A stretch of 64,000 nt of DNA, from positions 18,771,513 through 18,835,512 of the forward strand of contig CAIIXF020000004.1 in NCBI GenBank assembly GCA_903813345.2. Direction: 5' to 3'. A model generated the notes under the pieces. The model was given only the letters and a program-made list of their open reading frames with translations, ran no database searches and was not told where the DNA came from. The stretch comes from Owenia fusiformis (lineage: Eukaryota > Annelida > Polychaeta > Sabellida > Oweniidae). Shown here piece after piece: positions 9,201-55,100 of this stretch (position 1 is the stretch's first letter; each line of letters starts with the position of its first letter). A program made the translations under genes and the position numbers.

Positions 9201-12200
9201 ATAGTAATCATGATTGCAGCGCTCCAAGGTGGTCGAACATTCACTTCCTCTTTGGTGTCAATAGAGATTCCAGGATATACATGGCCATCACGGAAGTGTA
9301 CAGATGTCAGAAATATACTGTATGTCTTCACAGGGTCTGTTAATTGAATCTCAAACAGTTTATCCATGCGAATAGGAGTAAATGGTACTGTGATGTGAAG
9401 TGTAAAGTCTGCTGGGCAATCAATAATAACATCATACTTGAGTAATTCAATGATGTAATTACCATCATTGACAACAACTCCTAGGTAGCCAGGGCAACCA
9501 GACATTTCACCTGAAATAAAGAAAAACAAACGTCCAATACAATTATTTCTTTATCAATAATGGGGAAATGAGATGGACCAGTGTGAAATGTGATCATGGT
9601 TAAGATTGAACAGTTCATATGACAATTTATAATGAATATTTCATTTGACAAACTCAGACTCAGTCATCTTTAACCTCTTAAAGGCCCACTATACTTAATT
9701 TCAAAGAAAAAAGAAAAAAAATCATTGAAACATGTTACTCACACACTCAAATATGAAACAAAGTTTGATTTGCTCTAATATTTGACCAAGAAAAACAACT
9801 TTGCCATCTTTCAATGAAATTGACAAAAACTTGATATATAAAGCTTGACAGATTGAAAATATTTTTTGATAATTTATTGTAAGCTTTGATGTGATCCGCT
9901 TGAGCTGTTGTTGGTGTCAAATGAAAGATAATATTCTTATCAATACACTGGACATACTTTGAAATTTAAATGTAAGTCTTAATTTTGCCCAAAAATGTTA
10001 AAAATTCGCAAAGTGGGCCTTTAAGATACAACAATCTTTTCATCCTAAAAAGATGGAATTACTTGTGATATTACTTAAGGTGTTTATAAACATCAGCAAT
10101 GCAACATAAACAATATTGGTATGAGTATCAACACTTCTAACACATTTTACTCAGTTTTGTCATAAAAGTGGTGAAAATATTATATCTTGCAGTTACATGA
10201 GAAAAAAACTTTGTTTCATTTGAACCTTTGCAAAATCATCCAATCTTGATAAGATTTGATTTATAAAAGATGACAAGATGGAGAACATACAATAATGGAC
10301 TAAATTGCCAATACACTCATTGAGGAACCACTTCATCATTCATGAAAGCAGGAATTGCAATATGTTCAGGATTCAAGATTCCAACCCACCTTCAATGGTG
10401 ATCTTCCATACACCCTTCTCCTCATCCCTGGCCAAGTCAGAGTGCAATTGATCATCAGTGAACAACCAGGGGCCTGGCTTGTTTTTAAAGTAGTGCCACA
10501 AGACTGAAGCATTCTCTGGAAATACAACGAGCATTATTGCTCAAGTCAGAGTGCAATTGATCATCAGTGAACAACCAAGGGCCTGGCTTGTTTTTAAAGT
10601 AGTGCCACAAGACTGAAGCATTCTCTGGAAATACAACGAGCATTATTGCTCAAGTCAGAGTGCAATTGATCATCAGTGAACAACCAAGGGCCTGGCTTGT
10701 TTTTAAAGTAGTGCCACAAGACTGATTGAGTAATATAATGAGGAGATGCAAGAATGTCAGGAGTCAGGAACTACAGAGAAGTGGATGTAGATGTTGATTA
10801 AGTCAACATTTTTCAGAAGTGATTCTTGTCTGCCCCTATAACATGGGAAGTGTAACACTTCCTTCTTAAATTCTGTAGCCTATATTTTGATATAGAGAAT
10901 ATAAGAGAGGGGATGACTTACTCCCCCGATGCCCTAAAACGATCAAAGTCATAAAAATGCTATATGTGAATGGTACATGACAGCATGTGTGTTCAAAGTA
11001 TTTTACCTTGTAGAATATATATATATATATTTCTAACTACCAGAAAAGTGCTTTTATGAAACTTAACAGTATATCAGAACATTATACTCATCAAACATAC
11101 ATACATGTAGCTGAATACAACCATGAAAGATTTGAATCCTTTCCCAATCATTCCAGGAAAATTCTTTATGACAATATATGGTTTTAACAAGTAAATGATA
11201 TTGCCCTTATGTTTTCTTTTATGAACTTTACAATAGATTTGATACATATACTCTTTTAACAGCTGACATGCTTGAAAACATCTATGAAATTCACACATTC
11301 TGTTAGTAAATCACATGCCTAGAAAACACATTCTGAATGTAAAATAATAGAAATTAGTGAATATAAGGCCACACAGAAAGAAACATTCCCAAAAATGGGA
11401 CAAACATATAAAAAGAATATACTGTACCAAAATATTAAGTAAAAATGTTTGTTTATAATAACCTTATATATGTTACCTAAGTCACAGTGGGGCAATTCTT
11501 ATATTCATTGTAACATTTATCGTAAATTCTGTCATCTTCACAACTTTAAGATGGTAGAAGAGGTAAGTTTTTATATTTTGCTTTCTGTCACTTGGTCAGT
11601 TTGATGATAATCTAATTAATTCATAACTGCCCAAATCTCTGGATTTATTTTAATATCGGAACTTTCATGATAAACATACAAATTACTGCCTTGCTACAGT
11701 ATATAAGCAACAACTCATAGATTGGGGCTGTGAGGGATTTACAAGATTATTATCTTTACTACCGATTGACCAAGAAACTGATAGGATTTGCAAAAGTGTT
11801 TCTTTTTCCACCATTTTGGAAAATGTTATGAAGAATATCATATATATCTTTATAATCATTACCCCACCTTGAATGAGAGAAAGCATGAAACTGCAAGAAT
11901 TAAGCACAAAGAATATATAAGTAGTGAACTCAATAAAGTTCTGGGATTTGCAAATATACTCAAGAGTGAACACCTTCCCTGAAAAATGAACATTTGAAAT
12001 CCAAAGATCCTAACACTTGCCAGAATATGAGCTTCTTGGAAACATTTAAATTATGAGAACACTTTTAATATAAAAAATATGGTGTGTTAAAAGTTTGACC
12101 TTCAAACATGAACACTTTGAAATCAAATTTGAAGATATGACCTTGATATGTGAACCATTTGAAATACACACATTATGACATTATATCTGAAATTGAAATG

Positions 12201-17314: not shown

Positions 17315-17831
17315 TAGGGATGGGACGGTTCGTTTCGGTTCGGTTCGGTTCGGTTTTTCGGATCATCAGCCGTCGGTTCGGTTTTTTTCGGTTCGGTTCA
17401 TTCATTTTAAGGATTTGTATTTATTGACATGATTAGCTGCTTTGTCTCTGACGTTATAACAATATTTTATAGATGGAATTTTATGTTATAGTATTTCATG
17501 AACAATACATATTATTTAGAATACACGACTAAAGAATATAGTACCAGGGACCACATGATTGATTACCGAGGGATACGAATACGCGGATACGAAACGAATC
17601 TAGTAAACGAGTGAGCTAGCAACAGACAAGACAGACAAGGTAGGGACTAGGAGTATCAAAGATGTTGCTGTAAAACAGTGTTTTTAACTGTTTTATTGAT
17701 ACTTGACCAATGAAATATTAATCCGAAAACGATCCGAAAAGCTGATCCGAAAGTAGGGCCGTGATCCGAAAACCGATCCGAAGGCTATGAACCGCGGTTT
17801 TTCGGTATTTCGGTTATCCGTCCCACCCCTA
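17315..17831. mobile_element. hAT-like MITE inserted in the 33-bp array
   Basis: Ends TAGGGATGGGACGG and (inverse) TAGGGGTGGGACGG, with an exact 8-bp duplication GTTTTTAA at 17307-17314 and 17832-17839. The interior has CGGTTCGGTT-type repeats at both ends. 517 bp, no transposase. Confidence 0.88.
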
Positions 17832-18777
17832 GTTTTTAACATAGCCAAGTTGGCAGTTTTATGGATTTTTAACATAGCAAAGTTGGCAGTTCTATGGTTT
17901 TTTAACATAGCCAAGTTGGCAGTTCTATGGACTTTTAATATTGCCAAGTTGGCAGTTCTATGGATTTTTAACAAAGCTAAGTTGGCAGTTCTATGGATTT
18001 TTAACATAGCCAAGTTGGCAGTTCTATGGATTTTTAACATAGCCAAGTTGGCAGTTCTATGGATTTTTAACAAAGCCAAGTTGGCAGTTCTATGGATTTT
18101 TAACATAGCCAAATTGACAGTTCTATGGGTTTTTAACATAACCAAGTTGGCAGTTCTATGGATTTTTAACATAGTCAAGTTGGCAGTTCTATGGATTCTT
18201 AACACATCCAAGTTGGCAGTTCTATGGATTTTTAACATAGTCAGGTTGGCAGTTCTATGGGTTTTTAACATAGCCAAGTTGGCAGTTTTATGGATTTTTA
18301 ACATAGCAAAGTTGGCAGTTCTATGGGTTTTTAACAGAGCAAAGTTGGCAGTTCTATGGACTTTTAATATTGCCAAGTTGGCAGTTCTATGGATTTTTAA
18401 CAAAGCTAAGTTGGCAGTTCTATGGATTTTTAACATAGCCAAGTTGGCAGTTCTATGGACTTTTAACATAGCCAAGTTGGCAGTTTTATGGATTTTTAAC
18501 ATAGCAAAGTTGGCAGTTCTATGGGTTTTTAACAGAGCAAAGTTGGCAGTTCTATGGATTTTTAACATAGCCAAGTTGGCAGTTCTATGGATTTTTAACA
18601 TAGCCAAGTTGGCAGATCTATGGATTTTTAACACAGCCAAGTTGGCAGATCTATGGATTTTTTAATGTATATTGCCGTTTTGTATAGTTTTATTGATTCA
18701 TGTATTGTTTGTGTTTATGTACTTTGCGTTTATATTTTTTATACAGTTCTATGATTTTTAACATAGCCAAGTTGGCA

Positions 18778-25627: not shown

Positions 25628-28600
25628 CTGAAGAAAATGATTTTTAACACATAAATAAGTAACATTAAAAAAGAAAGAAAACATTTTATGATTAGCTCCA
25701 TATTTCTAAGAAGTAGATTCATATGATATAATAATATGTAAAGTTAGACCCAAACATTTTAACATTTTGTAAGGTAATGCAAATACAAAAATAAGGCATT
25801 AACATGTAAAAAGTCACAGCCTGCCATTTTTTACAGATGCCAAATGCCGAACACCAACAGGTGGCTGTCGCAACAACAAAGTTGGAGACTATAACAATAT
25901 GTCACCATTTGTGGTGGTGACATAAAAACTGAAGTAATATGAAAACCAAAGACATTTGCCTTTGAACAGACTTCAGTTATTTTAGATATTGAAATTTATA
26001 ATTTAAAATAATAACAACCACTGTGATTAATTCGACTAGTTCAGGACTAAATAAACAAAAATACACTCCCTTTATTCAAACCATAAATGGAATCTCTAAA
26101 GAACATTGAAATATCTAGTTCTCAACACCTATTGAAACGTTGTGAATAAAAAAAGTAAAATAAACAAGAAAATATTGAGTGAACTAACGATCACAAACAT
26201 TCAGAGTAAGCACACAAATATAGATATATCAATAACAGGGAATTTGCCATGAGGTTTATTTTCTGAAGTTGGCTGTGTGTTTGGACATTTTACTGTATGA
26301 CTGCACACTGCAGAGAGTTCTCAGGTAAGGAATCGCAATTTGGTGTCGGAAAACTCATGTAAAATTGAGCCCATATTTTGATATAATCTAAAGGGACCAT
26401 CACCCAGGAGCCATCAGACCTGGGTGGGGTCCTTACTGCATTGCTACAGTGACAGAAATGGTCACGTCGGTGTGGTGGAAATGGTAGACATCGTGCTGTA
26501 TCTCCATAGGTTTCAGTGATAGCGTTTGTTTTAATTATTGGTAGCATGTCTCTGTCAGCAAGAAGCAACTAACTGACCAACTAATAAAAGTAATCATTCT
26601 GCTTTGGTTAACAGTCAGCGGTAATCCACTCTAATGTCGCTTTATTTTCGCTATATTAGCCGAATTAGAAACAAAATGATCAATCTCTTCCACTCCCTCA
26701 TTTCTACATTATATCTGCGCATGTTCGCATATTTAATTAGCACAACAAAATAAATAAATGGCTCCCGACAGCGAATTGTCAACTCGTGACTAATTTCTAC
26801 ATTTTTCGAAATAAATTTCGTAATATGCATAGTGTCGAGTGATAGAATGATGTTTTAGGATACTGAATGTGTTGTTTTTTTCGAGGGGGATGCACAGGAG
26901 CTTGAATCTGAAGGAAAGACACCAGGTCGTAACATCCTAAAATATGAAAATAAAATAAAAATGGCTATCATCTGTGAAAACGACGTGAAATTGTCGCTGT
27001 TTTCCTTGTGTAAACGTCTCGCTGAAATGACCTGGAGATGAGGCGACAATTTTCTGTCATGTTAGCATGCTACACATCTAGGCTCATCTATGTACATCAT
27101 TATTTGCGACACTTACAGTTCGCATACCAGGCGACACTTGAGTGGATTACCACTGACTGGTTAAAGGGATCAGATCGTCCAGATTTTTCTCCCGAACAAC
27201 CAGTAATGTCCTAATATAACTGCTCATATAACATCATATATGCCTTAGATATATTTTGAGACCATATCATGAACACAGTTTTACCAATATATTGAGAAAA
27301 TCAACAGGACAACCAAAGAACAACCAAATGTCTAGAACACAATAAGTCTCAAACAACATACAATTTTTTAGATTAATTTATATTGCAAAACCCTTTTAAG
27401 TAATTAAAATAACATTCCCAAAGGATAAAAATGTGTTGTAATAAAAAAGAAAAAAGATTGCCCACGCCGGGAATCGAACCCCCCCCCCACATTTGGACAA
27501 AACAATAAGGGTTACAAGATGTCTGATACGTTAACTACTGCGGTACACAATGACAGCATAGGAGTCTTGTCAAATTTTATAACCATATAAATAATTGAAA
27601 AAAAGTAACATAAGTGCGCTTCATTTTATTTTAAAATGATCAATATATAGGACTGATATTGTTGAAATGTATGTTTTTTCATCTGAATTAATAAATAACA
27701 ATGTTTTATTGAGCATCGTACTTCACGTTGTCAGTCTTGGCAAATACAATCAGTTGACGGGATATTGAGCCCAGGCAGCCAATCAAAGATCGGAGCACAT
27801 TGAAGCGGGTTATTTCAATTTTATTTCAAACATTTGTCGAATTACCACTGATAGAAGTGGAAATTATGGCTGAGAACAATCATCAATTTGATACTGTTAA
27901 CGAATTGTCTGAAGCCCCAACATTGGTAAGTCGATAGAAATACTTGTTTTACATAATATAACACGAAAATATCAGAGGGGTTACTCTAATTGTGCTTTTG
28001 GACGACCTGATCCTTTTAAGTAAACCATTATTTAAAATATGTAGATCTAATATTTCATCAAACACATGCTTTGGCATTTTTGGGAATAGAAAGTACAAGT
28101 TCTACATGGCCCAAATATAATGCTGATTGTGTACCTTAATTTATTACTACATAAATGTTTATTTACAGAGGGGGAAATAACAATTATTACTAAATTGTAT
28201 TAATACTACAGTCAATGATGCATTATTGCAGATGTAATGTAAATATTAATTTTTACAATGTACTATACTTCTTTTGGTTCAACATGACATAGAGTATATA
28301 AATTCCTGATTTGGGTTAAAGGATTTTACAACAATTCATGTGTACATTGTGTAACATTTGTGTTACTCAAGACAGAATGGACACAATCCAAATGTGTTTC
28401 TTGGCCCTCAACCTTGTGCTGGACCTAGCCTGTGTTTGGAGTCAATCTACAGTCCATACTTGCTCATCCACAATGTTCTATGGAGAGACATGTGGATCTC
28501 AGCAGCTGGCTAACATGGCAGAGCAAATGACCCAAATACAGGTCAGCCTAACTTTTATATGGATTTGGCAGAGGGGAACAGTTTTTAAAAGCCAATTTAA

Positions 28601-31600
28601 ACTTTAAACTTTTTAGCTTGTATTGTCTTATCCAATGTTATCACAATTCAATTAGTGACTTTTCTATTTCAATATTGATTTAAGAAGTGCTATGTGAACA
28701 ATGTTGTATTTATTGTATTTTTCCTATGTAGAGGTTAATTAGAAAGTTAATACAATAGTATAACTGTTAAATTCTGATTGATAATTTTGATCAGTTTTTG
28801 TTATCATTTTTGTACATGTACATTTTGCACTCGAATATTTTCCCCATACTTGCGATTCCCTTTTTATGCCCTTATTTACATGGAAAATATTGTAATCCCT
28901 TGAGCAGCTATTGTATGATATTCTGTTTCATCTTGTAGCTATTGTATGATATTCTGTTTCATCTTGCAGCTATTGTATGATATTCTGTTTCATCTTGCAG
29001 CTAACGTATGATATTCTGTTTCATTTTGCAGCTATTATATGATATTCCGTTACATCTTGCAGCTATCGTATGATATTCTGTTTCATCTTGCAGCTATTGT
29101 ATGATATTCTGTTTCATCTTGCAGGTAATCAATGCTTTCTGTTTCCAGAGTGTCTTGTCAGAGGTGCTAGTAAAAGTGACTGACCAGTCACATGTGATAG
29201 AGCAACAACATATGAAGATAGAAGAACTAACGAGGAGACTAGATGGACCAGTTAGCACTGAAGGGAGATCATCCTGCGCATGTTAGTCTACTAGACCATA
29301 ATATCACTATACTTTGGAAATGATCTTTACTCTGAATACTCTCAGAAATGAATACTTGATTTCACTAGTTAGGGTAACTAGTAAATGGCAGGTTTGATTG
29401 CGTTGTTATGAAGCATTTTGTCAAAAAATATAAATGTTATAAAGCATTTAGAGATGTGTTACAATTACTAATGTCATATTTTGTTGGTAAAGATGTTATG
29501 CTTGCTCATATTTAACGCCCATTATCTTACAAGTACATTTATCATGTATATACATTTGATGTGTATATTTCAGTGTGTCATTGTATATACATTTGTGTAT
29601 ATTTCAGTGTGCCCAAAGGACTACTATGGGGCTAACTGCACAGTTCACTGTATAGCACAGGATGACTGCCAGGGTCATTTCAATTGTCATTGTATATACA
29701 TTTGTGTATATTTCAGTGTGCCCAAAGGACTACTATGGGCCTAACTGCACAGTTCACTGTATAGCACAGGATGACTGCCAGGGTCATTTCAATTGTCATT
29801 GTATATACATTTGTGTATATTTCAGTGTGCCCAAAGGACTACTATGGGCCTAACTGCACAGTTCACTGTATAGCACAGGATGACTGCCAGGGTCATTTTA
29901 ATTGTCATTGTATATACATTTGTTTATATTTCAGTGTGCCCAAAGAACTACTATGGGCCTAACTGCACAGTTCACTGGATAGCGCAGGATGACTGCCAGG
30001 GTCATTTCAATTGTCATTGTATATACATTTGTGTATATTTCAGTGTGCCCAAAGGACTACTATGGGCCTAACTGCACAGTTCACTGTATAGCACAGGATG
30101 ACTGCCAGGGTCATTTCAATTGTCATTGTATATACATTCGTGTATATTTCAGTGTGCCCAAAGGACTACTATGGGCCTAACTGCACAGTTTACTGTATAG
30201 CACAGGATGACTGCCAGGGTAATTTCAATTGTCATTGTATATACATTTGTGTATATTTCAGTGTGCCCAAAGGACTACTATGGGCCTAACTGCACAGTTC
30301 ACTGTATAGCACAGGATGACTGCCAGGGTCACTACAAATGCCACTGGGCAGATGGATCAAAGGTAAAGCCTTGGCTGCTCTTAGGCAAACCAATTAATTG
30401 TAACATATTAGGAAATGCATGAAACAAAAAATGTTCATGCTCATTATTTCAAAATTGGCCAAGTTGCAGCTTAGTCAAAAACACAATATACGCCTTGCAA
30501 AGGCAAAAGCAGCAATTCTGTGATTTCATTCTTTAAACAAAATAATGAAGACTGATCACTGGTCAGTATCAAGCGAAGGTAATGGCCATCAACTTTGCAT
30601 CAAAGATGACGGACGAGAAGTGTCGATTTCGATATTTTTCGATTTTTTCATCGAATTAGACTTCTTTATAGTTGGCGTAATGCTCATGATGAGTATGATC
30701 ATCTGTTTATATATCATGCGTGAAAAACGCTGTTCAATGGTATCTTCCACCGCTTAAGGGAAGGTAACTAGGATTTTGGTTTCACAGATGATAAGATAAC
30801 TAATATGCAGTGATGCGGTAATGTTATGAGAGTTTATAATAGAGAGCTAAGATGTACCGCATATTGAAAACATGACCTTTACCGTATCTTACATTTCCAG
30901 TTACCTTCCCTTAAGCGGTGGAAGATATCATTGAACTATGCACCTACCCATGATATTCGAACAAATTATCATACTCTGTAGTTCCCATGTCATATAAGTT
31001 AGATTTAGTTCAAATATCAAAGCATAACTTCAACTCTAAAGTAGTTTAATTAGATGAAAATATCAAAATGGACATTTCCTGTCCGCCATCTTTGATTCGA
31101 AGGTGACAGTTGTTACCTTCACTTGTTACTGACCAGTGACAGATGACATGACTAAAATAAATGATTATGATTAAAATGAAACCAAAGAAATAATACTAAG
31201 TACTGAATTGGTTGTAATGACTGAAATGCACGGCACAATCGGGCAATTAAGTCATTGTTCAGTGGATTTGATATCCTTATAGCATTATACCATCGTTTGG
31301 CTAGAATGATCATGACCACAGTGTGCTATAACATAATATGATAATTATTGTAGGTGTGTTTATCTGGCTGGGGAGGAGAGGAGTGTGATGTGTTCACTGG
31401 CAATGATAGCTGCCCTGTAGTGATGAGACATGGGGAGGATTTAGCAGGTAAATAGTCTAGCTTTCATTATAAGCTGTTCAGTAATGATGAGACATATGGA
31501 GAGGATTTAGCAGGTAACCAGTCTAGCTTTCATTATAAGCTGTTCAGTAATGATGAGACATGGGAAGGATTTAGCAGGTAACCAGTCTAGCTTCCATTAT

Positions 31601-34600
31601 AAGCTGTTCAGTAATGATGAGACATGGGGAGGATTTAGCAGGTAACCAGTCTAGCTTTCATTATAAGCTGTTCAGTAATGATGAGACATGAGGAGTATTT
31701 AGCAGGTAACCAGTCTAGCTTTCATTATAAGCTGTTCAGTAATGATGAGACATGGGGAGGATTTAGCAGGTAACCAGTCTAGCTTTCATTATAAGCTGTT
31801 CAGTAATGATGAGACATGTACATGAGGAGGATTTAGCAGGTAACCAGTCTAGCTTTCATTATAAGCTGTTCAGTAATGCTGAGACATGGGGAGGATTTAG
31901 CAGGTAACCAGTCTAGCTTTCATTATAAGCTGTTCAGTAATGATGAGAAATGGGGAGGATTTATCATGTCTAGCTTTCATTATAAGCTGTTCAGTAATGA
32001 TGAGACATGGGAAGGATTTAGCAGGTAACCAGTCTAGCTTCCATTATAAGCTGTTCAGTAATGATGAGACATGGGGAGGATTTAGCAGGTAACCAGTCTA
32101 GCTTTCATTATAAGCTGTTCAGTAATGATGAGACATGAGGAGTATTTAGCAGGTAACCAGTCTAGCTTTCATTATAAGCTGTTCAGTAATGATGAGACAT
32201 GGGGAGGATTTAGCAGGTAACCAGTCTAGCTTTCATTATAAGCTGTTCAGTAATGATGAGACATGTACATGAGGAGGATTTAGCAGGTAACCAGTCTAGC
32301 TTTCATTATAAGCTGTTCAGTAATGCTGAGACATGGGGAGGATTTAGCAGGTAACCAGTCTAGCTTTCATTATAAGATGTTCAGTAATGATGAGACATGG
32401 GGAGGATTTAGCATGTCTAGCTTTCATTATAAGCTGTTCAGTAATGATGAGACATGGGGAGGATTTAGCAGGTAGCCAGTCTAGCTTTCATTATAAGATG
32501 TTCAGTAATGATGAGACATGGGGAGGATTTAGCAGGTGGTTAGCCTATCTTTCATAATTAGCTGCCTAGTAGTGATGAGCCATGGGGAGGATTATATATT
32601 CTTACATGCCTTTAGTTTTAAGGTCTCAATATTTTCATGAAATCTATCTTGGTAGATTTTGTAAATAAAAGTAGTTTATATAAATAGTAGTACATCTATT
32701 GAAGTATTTGCCATCTATTGCCATTCCTTTAGGCTACTGAATATGATATAATTAATCTTCTATACCATGAAGTTTAGTAATGGACTCCTTGAAAAGTAAA
32801 TAGACCATAACTTTGATTTCAGGCATTGCCTCTTCTCTGCTGAATGGTGATGATCCAGTTCCTGACAGTGCATTCACAGCCTCATCGTATGATACGTCAA
32901 ACAGGAAAGGAAGACCAGAATATGCCAGACTGGATAGAGCAGCCACATGGAATACACAGGGAGGCTGGGTTGCAGCTTCAACACATGGAAGTCAGTGGGT
33001 ACAGGTAATAAAACACACAATGGGGTTGGATTGCACCTTAAACAAATGGCAGTCAGTGGGTAGAGGTAATCTAACACAATGGGGTCGGGTCACAGCTTCA
33101 ACATATGGGAATCAGTGGGTACAGTTTATCTAACACACAATGTGGTTGGGTCACAGCTTTGACATATGGGAGTCAGTTGGTACAGGTAACATAACACATA
33201 GTGGGGTTGGGTTGCAGCTTAACACATGGCAGTCAGTGGGTACAGGTAATATAACACATAGTGGGGTTGGGTTGCAGCTTAACACATGGCAGTCAGTGGG
33301 TACAGGTAATATAACACATAGTGGGGTTGGATTGCAGCTTAAACAAATGGCAGTCAGTGGGTAGAGGTAATCTAACACACAATGGGGTTAGGTCGCAGCT
33401 TAAAACATGGCAGTCAGTGGGTACAGGTAATCTAACACACAATAGTGTTTCAACCAATGGCAGTTGATGGTTTCAGTAAATCTGACACACATTGGAATGG
33501 GTGAAAGCTAATATAGTGTTTAATATGCATCAATAATAAAATGTACCAGGAAGGTTTTGGAGAAAGGAAAGGTAAATTGATCTGTTGGCAGTTGTTGGTT
33601 TCAGTAAATCTGACACACATTGGAATGGGTGAAAGCTTAATATAGTGTTTAATATGCATCAATAATAAAATGTACCAGGAAAGGTAAATTGATCTGTTGA
33701 TTGAATGAAGAAACTTTACAAACATATAATTTAATTGAAGGTTGATTTGAACATGCTGAGTAGTGTACATGGGGTAGTGACACAAGGGGTAGATAGCTCA
33801 GCACCCCCTATCACGATGACCTCATACTATGTGGGTTACCACGCACAACTGGGGGCCTCAGCTGATGACATCAAGATATACTCAGACACTGCAGGAGAGC
33901 CAACTGTGAGTGAAATTCAAGTTGACATCCGAAAAAAGTTTATATAAAAGTTCAGATCTTAGAGAGATATAAAAATCTTAGACATTGTTTCTGCATTAGA
34001 CATAGTTCCTTTATATGAGCCAGGGCACAGGAAAGGCCTCTTACATGTATCATAGATGTTTTCAATATTTTGATTATTTGTTTTTCTTAAAAGCACAAAG
34101 AGACCTTTCGAATGAGCCATGGAATATGACTTATGTCAACAAATTTTGCTTGCAGATATAGACCAAAAACAAAAAGATGTATTTGAATTTAGCCCATTTT
34201 CCCCTTAATCTATGGCACATTTTTGGCTCTGTAGCACAATTTTAATTTCTGTGATAAGACCAGTTTTCCTGTGTTGAGGCTCATATGTAAATGTATTTTG
34301 TTTGTGTTCTAAGATACAGTATTTATGTTAATATGCGTTGTAGGTGTTTCAGGGGACAGCTGATACAAGCAGTAAGACAACTCACAACTTCAGGTTTCCA
34401 TTTGTGGCAAGGATCATTAGGATCACAAGCAGAGTATTCCTCAACAAACCTGGACTTAGATTTGATGTCATTGGAGCGCCATTAGGTTTGGGTTTTTTGG
34501 TTTGAAAATTATAGTAACTTCACTCCATAAGTTTTTCCAATTATCAGAATGCCTTTTAAATCATAGAAACATGTTTTATGTAAAGTTATTGTGATGGTCT

Positions 34601-37600
34601 GAACTCATTAGAGTGTGAAGTGAAGTCAAACCTTAATTTGGTGTAATCTTTTATGAATGTATGCTCTTCAGGTCTATCAGGCAATTGGCTGGGTGAGATA
34701 ACATGTGATGGGGTCACCAATGTGGTTCAACTACCAATAGAACACAACACAGAAGGTTAGGGGCAAGACTTAATAGCCCACATTTATATAATCTTGTCAT
34801 CCCCAACCTCCTGTCCAAATTCTCCTTATGCGAGTCATTGATTGAAGTGAGTTTACTTATGAACAAAAATCCCTGGATCACTAGTAAGAGTGACAATAAT
34901 AATACAAACCAGTGAACTTGGATTTTATCCTTGTGTCTTCAAAAGAGTTTAATCATTTTAGATTAACATTCTCACTCCTACTACTTTGCTTTCTTTAAGA
35001 ACCACTTTTACATTGATTTATCAAAGGACCTCTGTACTACATATTTCAGGGTTCTACCACTCGAAGCCTTTCTTGTTCCATTTCACCAAGAAGACTACAG
35101 GCTACAAAGAGGAACTTTTTGGTTACCTTGAAATCCTGGCACCAACTACACTCACTCTACCCACTAAAGGTATGTCACCTCAAGATCATGGCACACACAG
35201 TCTACCCTCAAAAGGTATGTGACCTTAAGATTTGGGCATACGCCACATACACTCTACATACTAAAGGTATGTCACCTCAAGATCATGGCACACACAGTCT
35301 ACCCTCAAAAGGTATGTGACCTTAAGATTTGGGCATACGCCACATACACTCTACATACTAAAGGTATGTCACCTCAAGATCATGGCACACACAGTCTACC
35401 CTCAAAAGGTATGTGACCTTAAGATTTGGGCATACGCCACATACACTCTACATACTAAAGGTATGTCACCTCAAGATCATGGCACACACAGTCTACCCTC
35501 AAAAGGTATGTGACCTTAAGATTTGGGCATACGCCACATACACTCTACATACTAAAGGTATGTCACCTTGAGATCATGGCACACAGTCTAACCTCAAAAG
35601 GTATGTGACCTTAAGATTTGGGCATACGCCACATACACTCTACATACTAAAGGTATGTCACCTTGAGATCATGGCACACACAGTCTAACCTCAAAAGGGA
35701 TGTGACCTCAAGATTTGGGCATATGCCACATACACTCTACATACTAAAGGTATGTCACCTTGAGATCATGGCACACACAGTCTAACCTCAAAAGGTATGT
35801 GACCTTAAGATTTGGGCATACGCCACATACACTCTACATACTACAGGTATGTCACCTTGAGATCACAGCACTGACCACCAAACATTTCAGTTTATTAACA
35901 AATAGATTCTCTGCTATAGTGAGGTGAGGTGAGGATTACTTCATATTTAATAGACTCAAGCATATTTTCTGATTGAAATGTATCTTTGTTTTTCAGGAAG
36001 CCTCCAAGCAAATGGTGAGCTTGAATATGCATTCAATCTTGAACTGTCTCAAGACCAGCAAGGCCTGATTGTCACCAGCAGCATGTGTGACACAGCCACT
36101 TTAGACAGGCATATAGGTAAATATGACACATCCTAGGCAGACACGTAGGTAAATATGACACACTTAAGATAGACACATGGGTAAATATGACATACTTTAG
36201 ATAAACACATGAGTAAATATGACACATCCTAGACAAACACATGGGTAAATATGACACATCCTAGACAGACACTTTGGTAAATATGACAAATCCAAGACAG
36301 ACACTTGGGTAAATATAACACATCCTAGACAGACACTTGGGTAAATATGACACATCCAAGACAGACACTTGGGTAAATATAACACATCCTAGACAGACAC
36401 TTGGGTAAATATGACACATCCTAGATAGACACATGGATATGTATGACACATCCTAGACAGACGCATGGATAAATCATCCTAGATAAACAAAGAGGTAAAT
36501 ATGACACACCCTTGGCAGACATAAAATTGAATATGACACATCCAAGACAAACATTGAGGTAGATATAAAAAATTCAAATCCTCTTCAAATTACCAGAGGA
36601 TCAACATCAGACATTGTGCTTCAGATATAATCTTTTATTGATGTTTAGTGTTTTGTGACAGATAGCAGGATCAGTTCACTTCATCCCCAACAAATGTTCA
36701 ACTTGAGCTTCAGCTTCAGATAAGAGTTAATATCTGACATTGGACTTGATATTTGATCAATTCTAAATCCTTGAAAAAGCCTACAGAGCCTTTATAAGAT
36801 CACACCAAATTTCCCCTTCAGGGGCTTAGTAGTGATGTCACTGAATATGAACTGGCTTTATTTGTATTTGCAGAATTAGGAGGACCCTGTCTGAACAAAG
36901 GAAAATGTATAACTACAGGGGATATGTTGACAAACTGGTACTGCTGCTGCATTAATGGTTTCCAAGGTAACCATTGTGAAACATCCCAAACAAACTGAGG
37001 AGGTCAATGAGACTATAAAAAGCTAACCCGAGGACTTCTAATTTGAGCAAATGTTAAATTCTTTATTTTACAATGGTAATCATATAGACTCATATTTTAG
37101 TCTTTAAGGGTCTAATCATGCTTCTGTATAATAGTGGTCAAATGCATACTGAAACTCATATATTGGCTACCAAGAATTGATGGTGCAACATGTAAACTCA
37201 AAGTGGGAAATGTCTATATGAGTGATATAAAGAACTAACAACATGACAAATGCAATTACAAAAGTGTTACAAATGCCAATGTCCAAGTCAAGTCAGAAAA
37301 AACTGGCTATAACAATGTCACCATCATCATATCACTTTAATTAAAGGTCATTATCTATTACAAGGACCCTGGTGTCCAAACTAGTATACTATGGGGTATA
37401 ACTTTGGCATAAACTGCTTTATTTCATACTTAAGTGGGTTTCGGGTAGATATCACTCGGGAATATATATCATATCTGAGGAGCGGGCAGGATATATTGTA
37501 TATGTCCCGCTCCAGGCCAAATGCGGTCAGGTATAATGTATCCATCCCGCTCCCGGGAAAGTTTAAAAAAGTTTAAAAAAGTATGAGATACACCAGTTAT

Positions 37601-40600: not shown

Positions 40601-43600
40601 TTGACTTATCAAAGATTACATTTTTAGAAAAAAAGGCAGCCATTTTGAATAAAGAACCCTTCTCAAAAATTCCATCTTGTGCAAATCCTATGTTCTCAGG
40701 GCTTTGGCATACTAAATTTGAACCAAATCTGTCAACTACATGTAGTTGACTGGTATTTAAGCTATCATAGATTACAGGTTTATAGAGGTTTATTTCTCGA
40801 AGGTTTGTACAGTTGCGAATTAGTAAGTCCATTGTTATTTGTAAAAACCTAACTTGCATTTCTCAAAAGTTAATAACTTTGCAAAAATTTGGCATTTTTT
40901 TCGCAAGTTAGCAAATAAAGATGTCATGTGCAATATGTCATAATATAAGCCAATAATATTTGATAACTGAATCCATGGGCTTTCATGAAACCCCATACTG
41001 AATCTAATAAGTGCTAGGGATTCTTAGTTATCACAGATGGCATCATTTGATGAACACAATTCACATAGTGATTCCCTATTATACTTATTATTGTGACATG
41101 ACGGCAAAAAACAAGTACAAAGCAAGAGTCAGGATTAATTACTAAATTTTTAGTATTGCCTCACAAAAAATGGACATGAGCTTCATTCAGACTATAGTCA
41201 GTTTTCATACATTTGAAAATTGTTAATAGATGGACATACATGCTAGCCGTTTAAGTTCAATTTTGAGTTGCCATATTGGAAATGAATTTGAGTAAATGTC
41301 CTGACAACTCATATTTAAGTTAACAAAAATTACACTTTGTGAAAAATGGCTGCCATTTTGTATTAAGCATCAACGAATTTTCAATATTTATGAAATCCCT
41401 TTGTATAATCATCAAACAAGTGCATCAAAAGCAAAAAAGACTAACATCTTCACAAAGTTAGATAATTTCCTTTGCAATAACATTTGTGACATCAATAATC
41501 TCAATCGCTTGGGGTATAAATGCCTAAAAGAGATCTCCCACAGACACCCAAAAACTAAAATATTCTAATAAAAGCAAGCAAAGAAAACAAGACAGGAAAT
41601 TATTTCAGTTGGGATCAATAGGGGATAATGTTCTACTTGAAACACAACAAATCAAAGTTGGCCATCACAGCTGTAATTATTTCAGGCAACCACAAATCCT
41701 TAAAGATTACAATCAAGATTTTCTAGCCTCCTCCCTGGAGAGTTCTCCTCTCTTCAAAGAAATAATATAATCATCCATTATTTATTCACACAACTTTAAT
41801 ACTTTGATTAAAGGATCAACAAAAATGTACAATTCACATAATATATAACCTAAATGCTTAACAACAAGCATATAGATTCTCACACATGGTGGAAAAATAA
41901 TATTGAAATTAGAAAACATAATTGGAGATTGTGAGGGTAAGAGAGAAATATTGTCTCTGGATTACAGTAAATCTTCTACCACAGTGAATACAAACTCCTT
42001 CAGCCAATCTTAGTAAACATTTATCATTTCTAAAATGAGCAATTTCACATACAATGAGACAAGGTGCCTATGCCCCACAAACTTATCATGGCATCCTGAG
42101 AAATAAATGTCAGGGTTGTGATTCTCTAGTCAGGTAGCATGGAAATGGGAGATTAATTAATGAGAGCTTTATTGAACAAGTGAAGAATTGAGACTTCAAA
42201 TTTAGGTATATCAATCAGAAAAGGGCTTATCTTATATCATGAAGGGCTGAATTTTAACATTGGGATGAGTATTCTTTCTACTTACATATTATAGAAATGT
42301 GCTGCCAAATGTTTTATATTATATTACTATATATAATTTAGGGTAATAGAGACTTCCAATTAACTGCCAAAACTTCACATATATTCTCATCAAATAACTT
42401 AGTATTGTAAGATTTCTTGTTCATGAAGCAAACAATGTACCATAGTTTCTAATTGAATGTGTCTAGTTGCTCAGAGTTTTATTTTTTATTGATGTCACTA
42501 GATTTTTATTGATGTGCTTTTGGGTTATTTATTATTTCATTTTTGTTGTTTTGTAGACTGCAATTTAGATAGGATTACAGAGGGGATCTTGGTCTCCAGA
42601 ATTTCTTATTATTTTATCTTATTGCATACAAATCACATAAATTAAACATATCTAAGAAAGTAGTCAGACATTTATGGATAGTTAATTAATATTTTCCGAT
42701 CTAGATATGATGTTTCAGCAAGTGGGAATAACTTAAGTTGATACCGGTGTCATAGCAAGTATGAATATCTCATGTGATACTAGAATTATAGCTGTGAATA
42801 TCTCATGTGATACTAGAATTATAGCTGTGAATATCTTATGTGATACTAGAATTATAGCAAGTGTGAATATTTCATGTGATACTAGAATTATAGCAAGTGT
42901 TAATATCTCATGTGATACTAGCATTATATCAAGTGTTAATATCTCATGTGATACTAGCATTATAGCAAGTGTTAATATCTCATGTGATACTAGAATTATA
43001 GCAAGTGTGAATATCTCATGTGATACTTGAATTATAGCAAGTGTTAATATCTCATGTGATACTAGAATTATAGCAAGTGTTAATATCTCATGTGATACTA
43101 GCATTATAGCAAGTGTTAATATCTCATGTGATACTAGAATTATAGCAAGTGTGAATATCTCATGTGATACTAGAATTATAGCAAGTGTGAATATCTCATG
43201 TGATACTAGCATTATAGCAAGTGTTAATATCTCATGTGATACTAGAATTATAGCAAGTGTGAATATTTCATGTGATACTAGAATTATAGCAAGTGTGAAT
43301 ATTTCATGTGATACTAGAATTATAGCAAGTGTGAATATTTCATGTGATACTAGAATTATAGCTGTGAATATTTCATGTGATACTAGCATTATAGCAAGTG
43401 TGAATATTTCATGTGATACTTAAGGAATAAAGACTGAGATTTTATGATTTATGGCGTAATACATGACTGAAACTTTAATTCTGTTCATTGTTGAAAGACC
43501 GAAATTGTGTAGCGATTGAGGTCTTTGGCAATGGCCAGAATAAAATTTGAGGTCATATATTTGACATGAATCATAAAATCGAGGTTTTTGTTACAATTCC

Positions 43601-46600
43601 AATATGATAAACAGACAAGAAACACAACTATTTGTATTTATGAATTTAAGCGGTCATACTACCATAACATGCAGCATGAGATATTCACACTTGCTCTGAT
43701 GGTAGAGCAAGTGTGAATATCTCATGCTGCATGTGATGGTAGAACAAGTGTGAATATCTCATGCTGCATGTGATGGTAGAGCAAGTGTGAATATCTCATG
43801 CTGCATGTGATGGTAGAGCAAATGTGAATATCTCATGCTGCATGTAATGGTAGAGCAAGTGTGAATATCTCATGCTGCATGTGATGGTAGAACAAGTGTG
43901 AATATCTCATGCTGCATGTGATGGTAGAGCAAGTGGGAATATCTCATGCTGCATGTGATGGTAGAGCAAGTGTGAATATCTCGTGCTGCATGTGATGGTT
44001 GAGCAAATGTGAATATCTCATGCTGCATGTAATGGTAGAGCAAGTGTGAATATCTCATGCTGCATGTGATGGTAGAACAAGTGTGAATATCTCATGCTGC
44101 ATGTGATGGTAGAGCAAGTGTGAATATCTCATGCTGCATGTGATGGTTGAGCAAATGTGAATATCTCATGCTGCATGTAATGGTTGAGCAAATGTGAATA
44201 TCTCATGCTGCATGTGATGGTAAAGCAAGTGTGAATACTCATGCTGCATGTGATGGTAGAGCAAGTGTGAATATCTCATGCTGCATGTGATGGTAGAACA
44301 AGTGTGAATATCTCATGATGCATGTGATGGTAGAGCAAATGTGAATATCTCATGCTGCATGTAATGGTAGAGCAAATGTGAATATCTCATGCTGCATGTG
44401 ATGGTAGAGCAAATGTGAATATGTCATGCTGCATGTAATGGTAGAACAAGTGTGAATATCTCATGCTGCATGTGATGGTAGAGCAAATGTGAATATCTCA
44501 TGCTGCATGTAATGGTAGAGCAAATGTGAATATCTCATGCTGTATGTGATGGTAGAGCAAGTGTGAATATCTCATGCTGCATGTGATGGTAGAGCAAATG
44601 TGAATATGTCATGCTGCATGTAATGGTAGAACAAATGTGAATATCTCATGCTGCATGTAATGGTAGAGCAAGTGTGAATATCTCATGCTGCATGTGATGG
44701 TAGAGCAAATGTGAATATCTCATGCTGCATGTGATGGTAGAACAAGTGTGAATATCTCATGCTGCATGTGATGGTAGAGCAAGTGTGAATATCTCATGCT
44801 GCATGTGATGGTAGAGCAAATGTGAATATCTCATGCTGCATGTAATGGTAGAGCAAGTGTGAATATCTCATGCTGCATATGATGGTAGAACAAGTGTGAA
44901 TATCTCATGCTGCATGTGATGGTAGAGCAAGTGTGAATATCTCATGCTGCATGTGATGGTAGAGCAAGTGTGAATACTCATGCTGCATGTAATGGTTGAG
45001 CAAGTGTGAATATCTCATGCTGCATGTAATGGTAGAACAAGTGTGAATACCTCATGCTGTATGTGATGGTAGAGCAAGTGTGACTATCTCATGCTGTATG
45101 TGATGGTAGCGCAAGTGTGAATACTCATGCTGCATGTAATGGTTGAGCAAATGTGAATATCTCATGCTGCATGTAATGGTTGAGCAAATGTGAATATCTC
45201 ATGCTGCATGTAATGGTAGAGCAAATGTGAATATCTCATGCTGCATGTAATGGTAGAACAAGTGTGAATATCTCATGCTGCATGTAATGGTTGAGCAAAT
45301 GTGAATATCTCATGCTGCATGTAATGGTAGAGCAAATGTGAATATCTCATGCTGCATGTGATGGTAGAGCAAATGTGAATATGTCATGCTGCATGTAATG
45401 GTAGAACAAGTGTGAATATCTCATGCTGCATGTGATGGTAGTGCAAGTGTGAATATCTCATGCTGCATGTAATGGTAGAACAAGTGTGAATATCTCATGC
45501 TGCATGTGATGGTAGAGCAAGTGTGAATATCTCATGCTGCATGTAATGGTAGAACAAGTGTGAATATCTCATGCTGCATGTAATGGTAGAGCAAATGTGA
45601 ATATCTCATGCTGCATGTGATGGTAGAGCAAATGTGAATATGTCATGCTGCATGTAATGGTAGAACAAGTGTGAATATCTCATGCTGCATGTGATGGTAG
45701 AGCAAGTGTGAATATCTCATGCTGCATGTAATGGTAGAACAAGTGTGAATATCTCATGCTGCATGTGATGGTAGAGCAAGTGTGAATATCTCATGCTGCA
45801 TGTGATGGTAGAGCAAATGTGAATATCTCATGCTGCATGTAATGGTAGAGCAAGTGTGAATATCTCATGCTGCATGTGATGGTAGAACAAGTGTGAATAC
45901 TCATGCTGCATGTAATGGTTGAGCAAATGTGAATATCTCATGCTGCATGTAATGGTAGAACAAGTGTGAATATCTCATGCTGTATGTGATGGTAGAGCAA
46001 ATGTGAATATCTCATGCTGCATGTAATGGTAGAACAAGTGTGAATATCTCATGCTGCATGTGATGGTAGAACAAGTGTGAATATCTCATGCTGCATGTGA
46101 TGGTAGAGCAAGTGTGAATATCTCATGCTGCATGTAATGGTAGAACAAGTGTGAATATCTCATGCTGTATGTGATGGTAGAGCAAATGTGAATATCTCAT
46201 GCTGCATGTGATGGTAGAGCAAGTGTGAATATCTCATGCTGCATGTAATGGTAGAACAAGTGTGAATATCTCATGCTGTATGTGATGGTAGAGCAAATGT
46301 GAATATCTCATATTGCATGTGATGGTAGAGCAAATGTGAATATCTCATGTTGCATGTGCAAGAATCTCTCAACGTTGACATGCTATGAAAAATGAGCTAT
46401 TAAATTGCAACAGCATAAAACTCATCAACTTTGAAGTATCTATGACTAAGTAATCCAATAAGATATCTCACTCATCAAGTCATATTTATTCATGAGTATC
46501 ATATGAAAAGTTTCCCTTTGCTTTAAAATCAATTCATCCATGTCAAAATTGAGTTCCATCTTATTTTATAGGATTAAACAAAAGCCACTGTTCTTCTAGT

Positions 46601-49600
46601 TGTTTGGTTATCAACTGTATTCTGAATGGCATTTGTGATTTTCTTATGCTTTCTAACCATTACTTAATGCCATAGATATGATTTCACATTTTCTAGATTC
46701 ATTGTTCTAGCAAGTTATCTGCATAATATATATATGTATTACATACCTAGCGAAGCATTTGTATGGAAGTCAATGGAGCTGAAGAACGGCTATATATTCC
46801 TGTATAGCCGCCAAACTTTACACCATGACAATCGTATGACATCACGTTTTATTTCTTACATATTCCAATCGCACACAGACGTGTGACGTCATTGATATAA
46901 CATGAAAACAAAGCATTTTTGTCTTTTTTCACGCATATATTTCTACATATTAAATTCATGAAATGTAATGTAAAATGTACTTTAGGTCTGTCGTCAATAT
47001 AACCCTCGCAAGCTCGGGCTATATTGACGTCAGACCTCAGGCATATATTCAATGATAGGGACATAATGGCTAAATATAGCCTTACAACCATTCACAGATA
47101 AGTTAACACATAAACCCAATAGTCCTTTAACAAATACCCAGGCTAAGAGATCAAAATGTCATATGCTTCTATGGGTTTGTTTGTCATGCTACCACATTGC
47201 AGAGCTTGACTTGCTAATATTCTGATTCAATAAATGAAACCTGAGCCATAAAAATAGATAAGATATAAAACAATTTCCCGAGCAAACAACTAAATGTAAG
47301 GAATTTCTATTACCCAAAACAATAAAAAGGTCAGACAGGCCTATGTCATGTATTCTCTATGAGTTCAATTGTTTGGCATTTATACAATATCTACTGGTTA
47401 AAGTGATTTACAAACTTAATTCTCTGCTAATTTTTCTCTTCATCCTTCCATATGTATAGAACTTTATCCTAATCGAGGTTATATAGAGAGGTGTTCATGG
47501 TACTGATTTGTTCACAGGAGAGAGGTGTTCATGGTACTGATTTTTTAACAGGCGAGAGGTGTTCATGATACTGATTTGTTCACAGGAAAGAGGTGTTCAT
47601 GGTACTAATTTGTTAACAGGCGAGAGGTGTTCATGATACTGATTTGTTCACAGGAGAGAGGTGTTCGTGGTACTGATTGTTGCCTTAGTTAACTAATAAT
47701 ATTACCTAATGTTACCTAATGTCACATGCTTTTATAATTAAGTTGCTGGATTATCATTCATTTTATATGTTGCCATTTGTGATTAAGTTTAACAAATCTC
47801 AAGTCATATTAGTGCAGAAGGCAAAGTATCCCTACGTCATTGCTGAGTCAGAATATTGTGTAACCTTTGTCTAACCATTTGTTTCATTATAACTTCCAAT
47901 CAATGTGCTAGAATACATCCTTGCAAACCCTCTGCCCATATAAGGAAACCCCTGCTGCATAACCACCAAATCACTGTGCAATACATACTATTATCACATC
48001 CCAGCCCATTGCCAGGTATGGTCAGTATATACTGACAGGTATACTTTCAGTCTATACTGACAGGTCAACTTTTAGTCTAGTTTCAGTATACTTTCAGTAT
48101 ATGTCCCATGTTAAAATTCAATTGACAGGTATGTTTCAATTATGGTAATTAGACCTACCAGTATGGTTTCAGTATACTTTCAGTATAAACCAATGGGTAT
48201 ACATTCAGTATACTTTCAGTATATACATACCAGTATGGTTTCAGTATAATTTCAGTATATACCAAGGGGTATACATTTAGTATATACATATGGGTATACT
48301 TTCAGTATGGTATCAGTATATACCTATAGGTGAACATTTAGTCTATACTGACAGTCTTAACATGTCAGTCTGTAGACTGATATAGATGAGTATGACTCTT
48401 ACAATGAGATACCTTGAATTTTAAATCATTCTGCAGATGAGAAAAATTAGTACATGTAATTTGGATAGCAGTCTTATTTTCTAGCATTACATTATCTAAT
48501 TTTTTAGATGCAGGATTATGAAGACTTCTAAAAGACATACCACAAATAAATTAATATTCTTATATTAACTATATTCAAGTTTTATTCATGATGTATTTTT
48601 GATGCAAAGTTTTAATTTTCAAATTTTAACTGTATTTCTTTTTTAAATTTTACTATGACTGTATCTTTCATATCTTTCTCTCATTTTTTGTGTTTTCAAT
48701 GTATAAAACATTCAATGTAATTCTGAGCAGGGATGCTCCCCTGCCACCTAGTCTGGTAGGACAGGTTGTGGAAACAAATGGTCATAAAATAGAACTTACA
48801 TATGAATAATTGTTGACTTATAGTTTTATCATGAATTTTGCATTTGCCGTTTATATTATAAAATGATAAAGTAAAACTGGTATATGTTCAATCTAATCAT
48901 TATTTATCAGAGTTTATTTGGTATGCTTTCAGTATACTATTGAAAATCATAAGTAAAACTGGTATGCTTTCAGTATATTTAGTATTTATCAGAGTTTGTT
49001 TGGTATGCTTTCAGTATACTATTGAAAATCATAAGTAAAACAGGTATACTTTCAGTATATTCAGTATCTTCATACCTATTTACAGATCTATATTCAGTAT
49101 ATATACCTATTAATTGGTATGGTATCAGTCTGGTATCAGTATAGACCTATCAACAAGGTATACTTTTAGTATACTTTTGGTATAGACTGACTATACCTGG
49201 CAATAGGCTGGGATACTATGTAGAAATCTAGTAATTTAATTGGTTGCTTTCTATGACATATTTCCCGTATCACATAAATTTCATGATACGAGCACACGTA
49301 CCACACGTTGTCTATGGTAACGAAATAACATCATACAACTTCATTCTATTCTTTCCTAATTGAAAATGACGTCACATATAGGCTATGTTATTATTATTTC
49401 TTAGAAATAACGAAAATACGCTGTGTTCATGGTACTGATATGTTCACAGGAGAGAGGTGTTCATGGTACTAATGTGTTCACAGGAGAGAGGTGTTCATGG
49501 TACTGACATGTTCACAGGAGAGAGGTGTTCATGGTAGTGATGTGTTCATAAGAGAAAGGTGTTCATGGTATGGATGTGTTCACAGGAGAGAAGTGTTCAT

Positions 49601-54461: not shown

Positions 54462-55100
54462 GCTGTAGCTGTAGGTATGGACAAATTACAAGCAATTTCA
54501 GCTGTAAATGTAGGTATGGTCAAATTACACTCAATTTCAGCTGTAGCTGTAGGTATGGTCAAATTACACTCAATTTCAGTTGTAAATGTAGGTATGGTAA
54601 AATTACACTCAATATCAGCTGTAGGTATGGTCAAATTACACTCAATTTCAGCTGTAAATGTAGGTATGGTCAGATTACAGGCGATGTCAGCTGTAAATGT
54701 AGGTATGGTCAAATTACACTCAATTTCAGCTGTAAATGTAGGTATGGTCAAATTACAGGCAATTTTAGCTAAAAATGTAGGTATGTCAAATTACAGTCAA
54801 TTTCAGCTGTAGATGTGGGTATGGACAAATTACACTCAATTTTAGCTGTAAATGTAGGTATGGACAAATTACACTCAATTCCAGCTGTAGATGTGGGTAT
54901 TGACAAATTACAGACAATTTCAGCTGGTGATGTGGGTATAGAAAAACTACAAGCAATTTCAGTTGTAAATGTAGGTATGGACAAAATACAGTCCTTTCAG
55001 CTGTAAATGTCGGTATGGGTAAAAATACAAGCAATTTCAGCTGTAAATGTAAGTATTGACAAATTAGTCATTTCAGCTGTAGATTTGGGTATGGGTATTT
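54462..55100. repeat. Minisatellite, 39-bp unit
   Basis: About 16 units of GTAGGTATGGTCAAATTACA then CTCAATTTCAGCTGTAAAT. Open in several frames because the unit is 13 codons. Confidence 0.9.

Follow-up and report, generated by a model that had tools for sequence, protein, structure and literature searches.

Structure of gene B

The window analysed here, a stretch of 64,000 nucleotides (64 kb) of the Owenia fusiformis genome with a GC content of 0.343, contains on its + strand a gene of 11 exons between positions 28377 and 36998, termed gene B. Its 476-residue reading frame was assembled from the sequence, and GT and AG are present at all junctions of this 11-exon frame. Exon 1 (28377..28541), delimited by the open reading frame and a GT donor, carries the start codon and, judged by eye, a signal-peptide-like N terminus. 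The remaining exons were placed from the reading frame, and the domains on them with Pfam: exon 2 (29149..29281), exon 3 (30262..30362), where a DSL domain starts, exon 4 (31354..31447), where it ends, exons 5 (32823..33004), 6 (33741..33905) and 7 (34344..34485), which encode an F5/8 type C domain, exons 8 (34672..34755), 9 (35050..35169) and 10 (35997..36116), and exon 11 (36874..36998), which ends in the stop codon. In the Pfam scan of window ORFs, which covered six proteins, the gene B product matched F5_F8_type_C (9.8e-12) and DSL (1.4e-10), both over the cut-off, and each match covers more than one exon.

Minisatellites in gene B introns

Tandem Repeats Finder (TRF) located minisatellites in 6 of the 10 gene B introns, all described here on the + strand. 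Five of the six, with units of 109, 64, 61, 97 and 32 bp, cross an exon edge, four of them at a donor and one at an acceptor. The arrays comprise 7 to 18 copies with 86-97% matches between copies (TRF). The 109-bp array (7.0 copies, 29567..30331) contains the exon 3 acceptor and the first 70 bp of exon 3, and exon 3 is joined to its last copy. The 64-bp array (approximately 18 copies, 31408/31417..32593) contains the end of exon 4, which it overlaps by 31-40 bp, and the donor; the 61-bp array (approximately 8 copies, 7.9 in TRF, 32966..33443) contains the last 39 bp of exon 5 and the donor. The 97-bp array (7.4 copies, 35153..35865) includes the last 17 bp of exon 9 and the donor, its unit consisting of two halves that each carry a donor, and the 32-bp array (approximately 12-14 copies, 36102..36553; called by TRF at 36102-36474 and then extended) includes the last 15 bp of exon 10 and the donor. 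The units repeat a donor edge or an acceptor edge, never a whole exon. As all five consist of an exon edge plus its splice site, the original prediction that the units were copied from the junctions holds, as do the unit lengths that it gave, apart from one of 60 bp that is corrected to 61 bp.

The sixth array (31-bp unit, 7.8 copies, 28904..29145, TRF) repeats the 3′ end of intron 1 with its pyrimidine tract and AG. It was described as reaching exon 2; it does repeat the acceptor end of the intron, but its last base lies 3 bp short of the exon. It contains intron sequence only and is strictly not a "mirage" (see below), as there is no exon edge in the unit. A search for this array in one assembly gave a single match.

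The position of acceptor arrays 5′ and donor arrays 3′ of their exons had been taken as a sign that duplication starts at the exon edge. This geometry is uninformative, because any tandem duplication that straddles a junction forces it: the exon body stays with the 3′-most acceptor copy or the 5′-most donor copy. A start at the exon edge is not seen in the units either, whose ends lie within the exon, 4 to 127 bp from its edge, and the exonic share of the unit (mean 0.52, 17 arrays) was not distinguishable from uniform (KS P = 0.27).

If every array is reduced to a single unit, the gene B introns that contain arrays measure 228-396 bp. Under a null model in which the founding unit is placed uniformly over the intron plus its edges, the straddling probability per array in these collapsed introns is 0.13 to 0.57; the introns are thus short enough that straddling of a junction is likely anyway. 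Five spanning arrays of six compares with 1.9 expected (P = 0.008), for a gene that was chosen post hoc.

Arrays in kinesin and CCT genes

Intronic arrays were counted against chance at 41 further loci of this genome, 34 of kinesin and 7 of CCT genes, picked blind to repeats, with 161 resolved introns. Among 39 kinesin clusters, 34 were taken; left out were four extending beyond 15 kb and one represented by a single match. CCT-family matches left out were two long near-single-exon ones (C8 at 24.99 Mb, and C3), those on C12 and C222, a 22-kb gene on C11 and a lone match on C7 at 13.37 Mb. Eight of 143 kinesin introns, in which no splice pair could be resolved, were dropped (two arrays lie inside them, neither spanning), and mirage-like arrays at terminal exons whose neighbour was not resolved, at the first exon of K29 and at T47, were not counted.

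Across the 41 loci, an exon edge was crossed by 10 of 36 intronic arrays, versus 4.9 expected under a random founding unit (P = 0.007), a seed-placement null that depends on estimated ancestral intron lengths. The spanning arrays involve five donors and five acceptors, and all 10 were also confirmed by reading the sequence. The count is thus above chance, with the other 26 arrays lying elsewhere in introns, and the arrays are not peculiar to one gene, since kinesin and CCT genes are unrelated to gene B. In the kinesin set, where the median intron is 403 bp, nine arrays were within 10 bp of an edge versus 4.8 expected (P = 0.018), while the spanning excess for kinesins alone gave P = 0.045 to 0.058. 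One array, at K26, overlaps its exon by only 4 bp; when an 8-bp overlap was demanded, 9 spanning arrays remained versus 4.5 expected (P = 0.0135).

Junction arrays were present in 10 of 161 introns, or approximately 1 in 16 (95% interval 3-11%). This rate predicts 0.62 junction arrays for gene B, where there are five (Poisson P = 5e-4, a value that applies to a preselected gene). Random placement alone therefore fits incompletely, in the sample as in gene B, and we infer that the rate of approximately 1 in 16 introns holds across the genome, with gene B in its upper tail.

The excess could mean that a mutational process founds arrays preferentially at exon-intron junctions, a reading that we regard as doubtful; template switching or breaks, associated with co-transcriptional splicing or with the step in base composition at exon edges, are equally tentative candidates for its cause. 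Such a process is favoured by the 10 spanning arrays, by the kinesin arrays close to an edge and by the 5 of 6 in gene B. The two-fold excess comes, however, from only 36 arrays, 26 of which lie elsewhere in introns, and from a null built on estimated intron lengths; it weakens in the kinesins alone, and units do not terminate at the exon edge. Any pull of junctions on arrays is mild at most, approximately two-fold.

That the arrays are assembly artefacts is scarcely credible. Assemblies are generally known to misstate repeat copy number often, and the copy numbers given here may still be off, but the gene B copies have diverged from one another, and separate arrays occur at many loci on different contigs.

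Decoy splice sites

By matching, gene B contains 62 decoy splice sites, with GT or AG intact in 58, in agreement with the dozens predicted. The last copy of the 31-bp array (29125) served as the matching reference for that array, in which 7 of 7 decoys are intact; when this copy is counted in, the totals become 63 and 59. The AGs of eight 31-bp copies precede the real exon 2 acceptor. The 109-bp array has six decoy acceptors and the 64-bp array 15 decoy donors, all intact and all leading to an in-frame stop if used; 6 of 7 decoys are intact in the 61-bp array, 13 of 14 in the 97-bp array and 11 of 13 in the 32-bp array. Use of a decoy would bring in an in-frame stop for 40 of 42 donor decoys and 6 of 6 exon 3 acceptor decoys of gene B (46 of 48 overall). 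Splicing to the last exon 2 decoy acceptor (29125) would meet a stop immediately, and the first decoy of the 97-bp array (35214) would extend exon 9 by 15 stop-free codons. Decoys scoring above the real donor numbered 0 at exon 4, 4 of 8 at exon 5, 13 of 13 at exon 9 and 3 of 10 at exon 10; those above the real acceptor were 5 of 12 at exon 3 and 1 of 7 at exon 2.

Over the 17 arrays with at least one decoy, 107 of 113 decoys keep their dinucleotide, and mutational weakening of decoys was rejected on this count. In the sample, K26 has no decoy under the matching rule, and K16 and T45 each have a single matched decoy without GT. Variable columns made up 3 of 24 decoy GT/AG columns versus 121 of 456 other columns (Fisher P = 0.15), which leaves room for some constraint. 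In the exonic parts of decoys from seven arrays, no pooled codon-position bias was detected (22/133, 16/135 and 24/132 variable columns at positions 1, 2 and 3; chi-square P = 0.33), and the idea that decoys are translated cassettes was rejected for lack of it. In two kinesin arrays, variation in the exonic columns tends to fall on third codon positions (0, 0, 4 in K18; 2, 1, 5 in K21), and both translated decoy copies of K21 reach a stop. Selected tandem alternative exons, that is, copies with a whole exon, both splice sites and coding constraint, were not found. No RNA fold common to the six gene B array stretches was detected, and concealment of decoys by RNA structure was rejected on that basis; the fold z-scores were 1.11, -1.94, -0.28, 0.41, -1.76 and -0.23, so that two stretches fold better than most shuffles.

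It is very improbable that selection keeps the arrays as decoys that tune the splicing or expression of gene B. The intact dinucleotides, in gene B as over the 17 arrays, the somewhat lower variability of GT/AG columns relative to flanking columns and the five junction arrays within a single gene would fit such a role, and the available part of PMC2812944 describes boundary repeats that alter the splicing of some human genes. Equivalent arrays occur, however, in unrelated kinesin and CCT chaperonin genes, the lower variability is not significant, nearly all decoys tested would lead to stops, and the six array stretches share no fold, though two, at z -1.94 and -1.76, differ from the others (-0.28 to 1.11). 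The recurrence in gene B had been taken to suggest a mechanism acting at junctions or selection for splicing control; the roughly two-fold junction excess leaves room for the first, and there is little sign of the second, because of the stops, the missing pooled codon bias and the lack of a shared RNA fold.

Origin of the arrays and comparison with known systems

The arrays are probably the product of near-neutral minisatellite growth, in which the founding unit straddled the junction of a short intron and splicing was held at the exon-proximal site. A tandem duplication would arise at practically any position in a short intron (approximately 200-400 bp) or at its edges, and where it straddles a junction, one copy would stay with the exon body and the additional ones would end up on its intron side. 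Unequal exchange or slippage would then multiply and homogenise the copies. The exon-proximal site would be kept because no other, when paired with the splice site at the far end of the exon, defines an exon of normal length (exon definition), and use of a distal site would nearly always lead to a stop, with loss of the transcripts to nonsense-mediated decay. Extra copies would thus be near neutral and therefore accumulate. For gene B itself, exon-proximal splicing is predicted from the reading frame.

In amphioxus, minisatellite-like arrays that span an exon-intron boundary and repeat the splice signal, on the 5′ or 3′ side, are described as "mirages" in the consulted part of PMC3087553; regular mRNAs are reported there despite the decoys, as in the consulted part of PMC3902484, which also describes similar repeats in lancelet PGBD5 and cites troponin C. 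The gene B arrays are likewise minisatellite-like tandem arrays (TRF), the unit spans a boundary with its splice signal in 5 of 6 arrays of gene B and 10 of 36 of the sample, and either boundary is repeated in the sample. To judge from those parts of the sources, units of tens to approximately 160 bp with an exon edge and a donor or acceptor, intact decoys and a preserved reading frame are shared features, whereas the annelid host, the five arrays in one gene and the per-intron rate set against a null are particular to the present case. We consider it likely that the gene B arrays are junction-spanning minisatellites of the mirage kind in an annelid-like genome.

Human segmental-duplication genes contain variable internal tandem repeats at exon-intron boundaries, with reported changes in splicing (PMC2812944, in part), and by analogy the present arrays may possibly affect isoforms. 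Both systems share tandem repeats across the boundary; the human ones are described in that part as recent, paralog-variable and linked to novel introns and alternative transcripts, whereas the copies here, known from the genome sequence, enlarge an existing intron. A model of intron gain by tandem duplication of AG/GT-bearing sequence, discussed in the consulted part of PMC3087553, likewise begins with a duplication that copies splice-site-like sequence. No new intron made from exonic sequence was found in gene B or the ten sampled spanning arrays, where the copies lie on the intron side and the flanking exons are homologous or in frame. Ordinary intronic minisatellites, to which the 26 non-spanning arrays of the sample belong, are of the same size class and abundance and have units without an exon edge; for the ones reported in intron 1 of earthworm metallothionein genes, the consulted part of PMC12783039 mentions none.

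Work on splice-site choice usually involves one or two competitors, and here up to 17 decoys adjoin the real site. If approximately 1 in 16 introns (10/161) harbours an array of up to 17 near-identical decoys, the lineage would provide thousands of natural experiments on spliceosomal selection among identical sites, the exon-proximal one being taken. With several unrelated genes available, including chaperonin subunits, exon definition and the exon-proximal rule can be tested by RNA-seq, and a rate and a null model are now at hand for testing a junction-linked mutational process. It is unlikely that exon-intron junctions in this annelid genome found tandem duplications at approximately twice the rate of the rest of the introns; if they did, the presence of the same arrays in amphioxus would mean that mutation linked to splicing gives rise to them repeatedly.

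Host lineage

We take the bantam, mir-2 and erythrocruorin linker families to be protostome or annelid markers. For mir-2, four matches lie within approximately 5 kb, three of them over the cut-off, and one control bacterium matched below it. The bantam match scored 53.2 bits, below the 61-bit cut-off, and the same hairpin matched mir-81, of the same clan, at 49.5 bits, below 54.5. The annelid erythrocruorin linker domain gave three matches over the cut-off in the genome. An amphioxus host, suggested by the mirages described there, was rejected on these matches and on the window GC of 0.343; a GFP-family search also gave no match, which counts for little because the control genomes gave none either. 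A search for COX1 did not find it. Junction arrays are already known in amphioxus, and with such markers the annelid-like genome is a further invertebrate lineage that has them. The O. fusiformis genome is reported at 505.8 Mb in 12 chromosome-scale scaffolds in the consulted part of PMC9977687.

A second gene-like stretch of the window contains, on the - strand, another 109-bp array (2.7 copies, 10433..10725, TRF), which includes an acceptor (first exon base 10515) and 83 bp of coding-like exon.

Minisatellites across exon edges in gene B

The window (C4:18771513-18835512) lies within a 498-Mb genome, and gene B (28377-36998, plus strand) was modelled as 11 exons with GT or AG at all junctions and a single 476-codon frame, whose product contains DSL and F5/8 type C domains, both exceeding the Pfam cut-offs. 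Minisatellites are present in 6 of its 10 introns. Five arrays extend into an exon, one across the acceptor of exon 3 and four across the donors of exons 4, 5, 9 and 10, confirming the original prediction that minisatellites of this gene contain splice junctions; the sixth, a 31-bp array upstream of exon 2, copies the 3' end of the intron only and abuts the exon, ending 3 bp short of it. The predicted dozens of decoys (extra splice-site copies inside arrays) were also found, 62 by matching and 58 with intact dinucleotides (7/7, 6/6, 15/15, 6/7, 13/14 and 11/13 for exons 2, 3, 4, 5, 9 and 10), totals that leave out the reference copy at 29125 and become 63 and 59 with it.

Junction arrays in unrelated genes of the same genome

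Loci were chosen blind to repeats by kinesin motor (144 matches) and CCT chaperonin (60 matches), and sequence was fetched for 34 kinesin and 7 CCT loci (~279 kb). Exons were located with purpose-built profiles and splice pairs assigned by frame and score, which resolved 135 of 143 kinesin and 26 of 26 CCT introns (161 in total). Arrays were accepted at a TRF score of at least 80 and a period of at least 10, and counted as crossing when they reached 4 bp or more past an exon edge. The 161 introns held 36 arrays, 10 of which crossed an exon edge, five at donors and five at acceptors; as these comprised 7 of 33 arrays in kinesins and 3 of 3 in CCT genes, junction arrays are not confined to one gene. 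All 10 were inspected in sequence, as was the uncounted T47, a CCT chaperonin gene (L047, G000:C11:35572000-35577400, minus strand) with six 83-bp units including the acceptor before the exon at 478; this array, in the first 518 bases in gene orientation, was excluded from the count, its upstream exon not being resolved. At the kinesin locus K21 (G000:C2:23265700-23280500; L021, L022), the start of an exon and its acceptor are repeated in 18 near-identical units of 159 bp (11313-14156, gene orientation); in translation, the two decoy copies tested hit a stop, and the last copy continues into the gene.

As a null model, the founding unit was placed uniformly over the intron, with arrays collapsed to one unit, plus edges. 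Crossing arrays were about two-fold commoner than random placement gives (10 observed versus 4.9 expected, P = 0.007), with 7 versus 3.9 in kinesins only (P = 0.058), 9 versus 4.5 under an 8-bp overlap rule (P = 0.0135) and 8 versus 4.0 in introns of at most 1 kb (P = 0.012). Gene B, picked after the fact, gave 5 of 6 versus 1.9 (P = 0.008). The sample rate (10/161 introns) corresponds to 0.62 junction arrays per ten introns, against which five in gene B have a Poisson P of 5e-4, a value valid for a gene selected beforehand; if all genes share one rate, some such genes would be expected among an animal's tens of thousands. Arrays thus lie at exon edges somewhat beyond chance in the sampled introns, but short introns and abundant minisatellites account for much of the predicted pattern.

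The placement of acceptor arrays 5' and donor arrays 3' of their exons had been described as what a duplication starting at the exon edge would give. This geometry is forced for any straddling unit, because a single copy remains attached to the body of the exon and the rest land on the intron side. A start at the edge would make unit ends coincide with it; the exonic share of the unit, spread from 0.13 to 0.80 (mean 0.52) over 17 arrays and indistinguishable from uniform (KS P = 0.27), speaks against this.

Decoy splice sites and selection

By a rough position-weight score, several gene B decoys score as high as the real site or higher, among them all 13 close matches at exon 9, but none of the 15 at exon 4 equals or beats the real donor. 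An in-frame stop is added by 40 of 42 gene B donor decoys tested and by all six exon-3 acceptor decoys. GT/AG is intact in 107 of 113 decoys from 17 arrays, and in the 12 arrays that have two or more decoys, 3 of 24 dinucleotide columns vary versus 121 of 456 others (Fisher P = 0.15); decoys therefore escape purging and may be slightly constrained. Since variable columns in their exonic parts fall alike on codon positions 1, 2 and 3 over seven arrays (22/133, 16/135 and 24/132), translation of decoys is probably not the rule, notwithstanding a lean to third positions in the kinesin loci K18 and K21. When six array stretches were folded, those of exons 5 and 3 beat most of their shuffles (7 and 10 of 200 shuffles did equally well), the other four did not, and no RNA fold was common to the six.

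The original prediction offered a mechanism acting at junctions or selection for splicing control, a choice that the data do not force: maintenance of the arrays by such selection is unlikely, and a mild mutational bias towards junctions is possible. The best explanation is near-neutral minisatellites of the mirage type, arising in first approximation at random positions, the apparent two-fold junction excess aside.

Relation to known systems

Tandem repeats of exon-intron boundaries, named 'mirages', have been described in amphioxus, at globin genes and at Adh3, with regular mRNAs, haplotypes differing in length and somatic instability at Adh3 (PMC3087553), and in lancelet PGBD5, where troponin C is cited (PMC3902484). 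In human genes, variable tandem repeats at these boundaries are reported to be accompanied by novel introns and alternative transcripts (PMC2812944). Earthworm metallothionein genes have first-intron minisatellites, for which the accessible text mentions no exon edge (PMC12783039). The present arrays belong to a lineage other than amphioxus; lineage markers in the genome include a bantam-like hairpin (below cut-off), a mir-2 cluster and an annelid linker domain. In a search of the open-access literature, no account of annelid mirages was recognised, which does not prove absence from print.

Among the many sites, the exon-proximal one would be chosen, as it alone makes a normal-length exon together with the splice site at the opposite end. 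When splice sites compete, the intron-proximal site is often favoured; if this preference holds, genes with junction arrays would be informative exceptions.

Other arrays in the window

The minus strand, opposite to gene B, also bears a junction array, 2.7 copies of a 109-bp unit (10433-10725) that combines an acceptor (exon starting at 10515) with 83 bp of coding-like sequence from the exon. Two pairs of arrays 0.3-1.8 kb apart (47485-47678 and 49423-50401; 42752-43420 and 43697-46358) have closely related units, of 34 bp and of 36/37 bp, the 34-bp unit containing the acceptor-like TTGTTCACAGG. The unit of a 39-bp array (54462-55094) includes the donor-like TGTAGGTATGG and open frames. In a 33-bp array (17693-18665), each strand stays open over a long distance (315 and 292 codons); this most likely reflects the unit length, a multiple of three, and not a gene.
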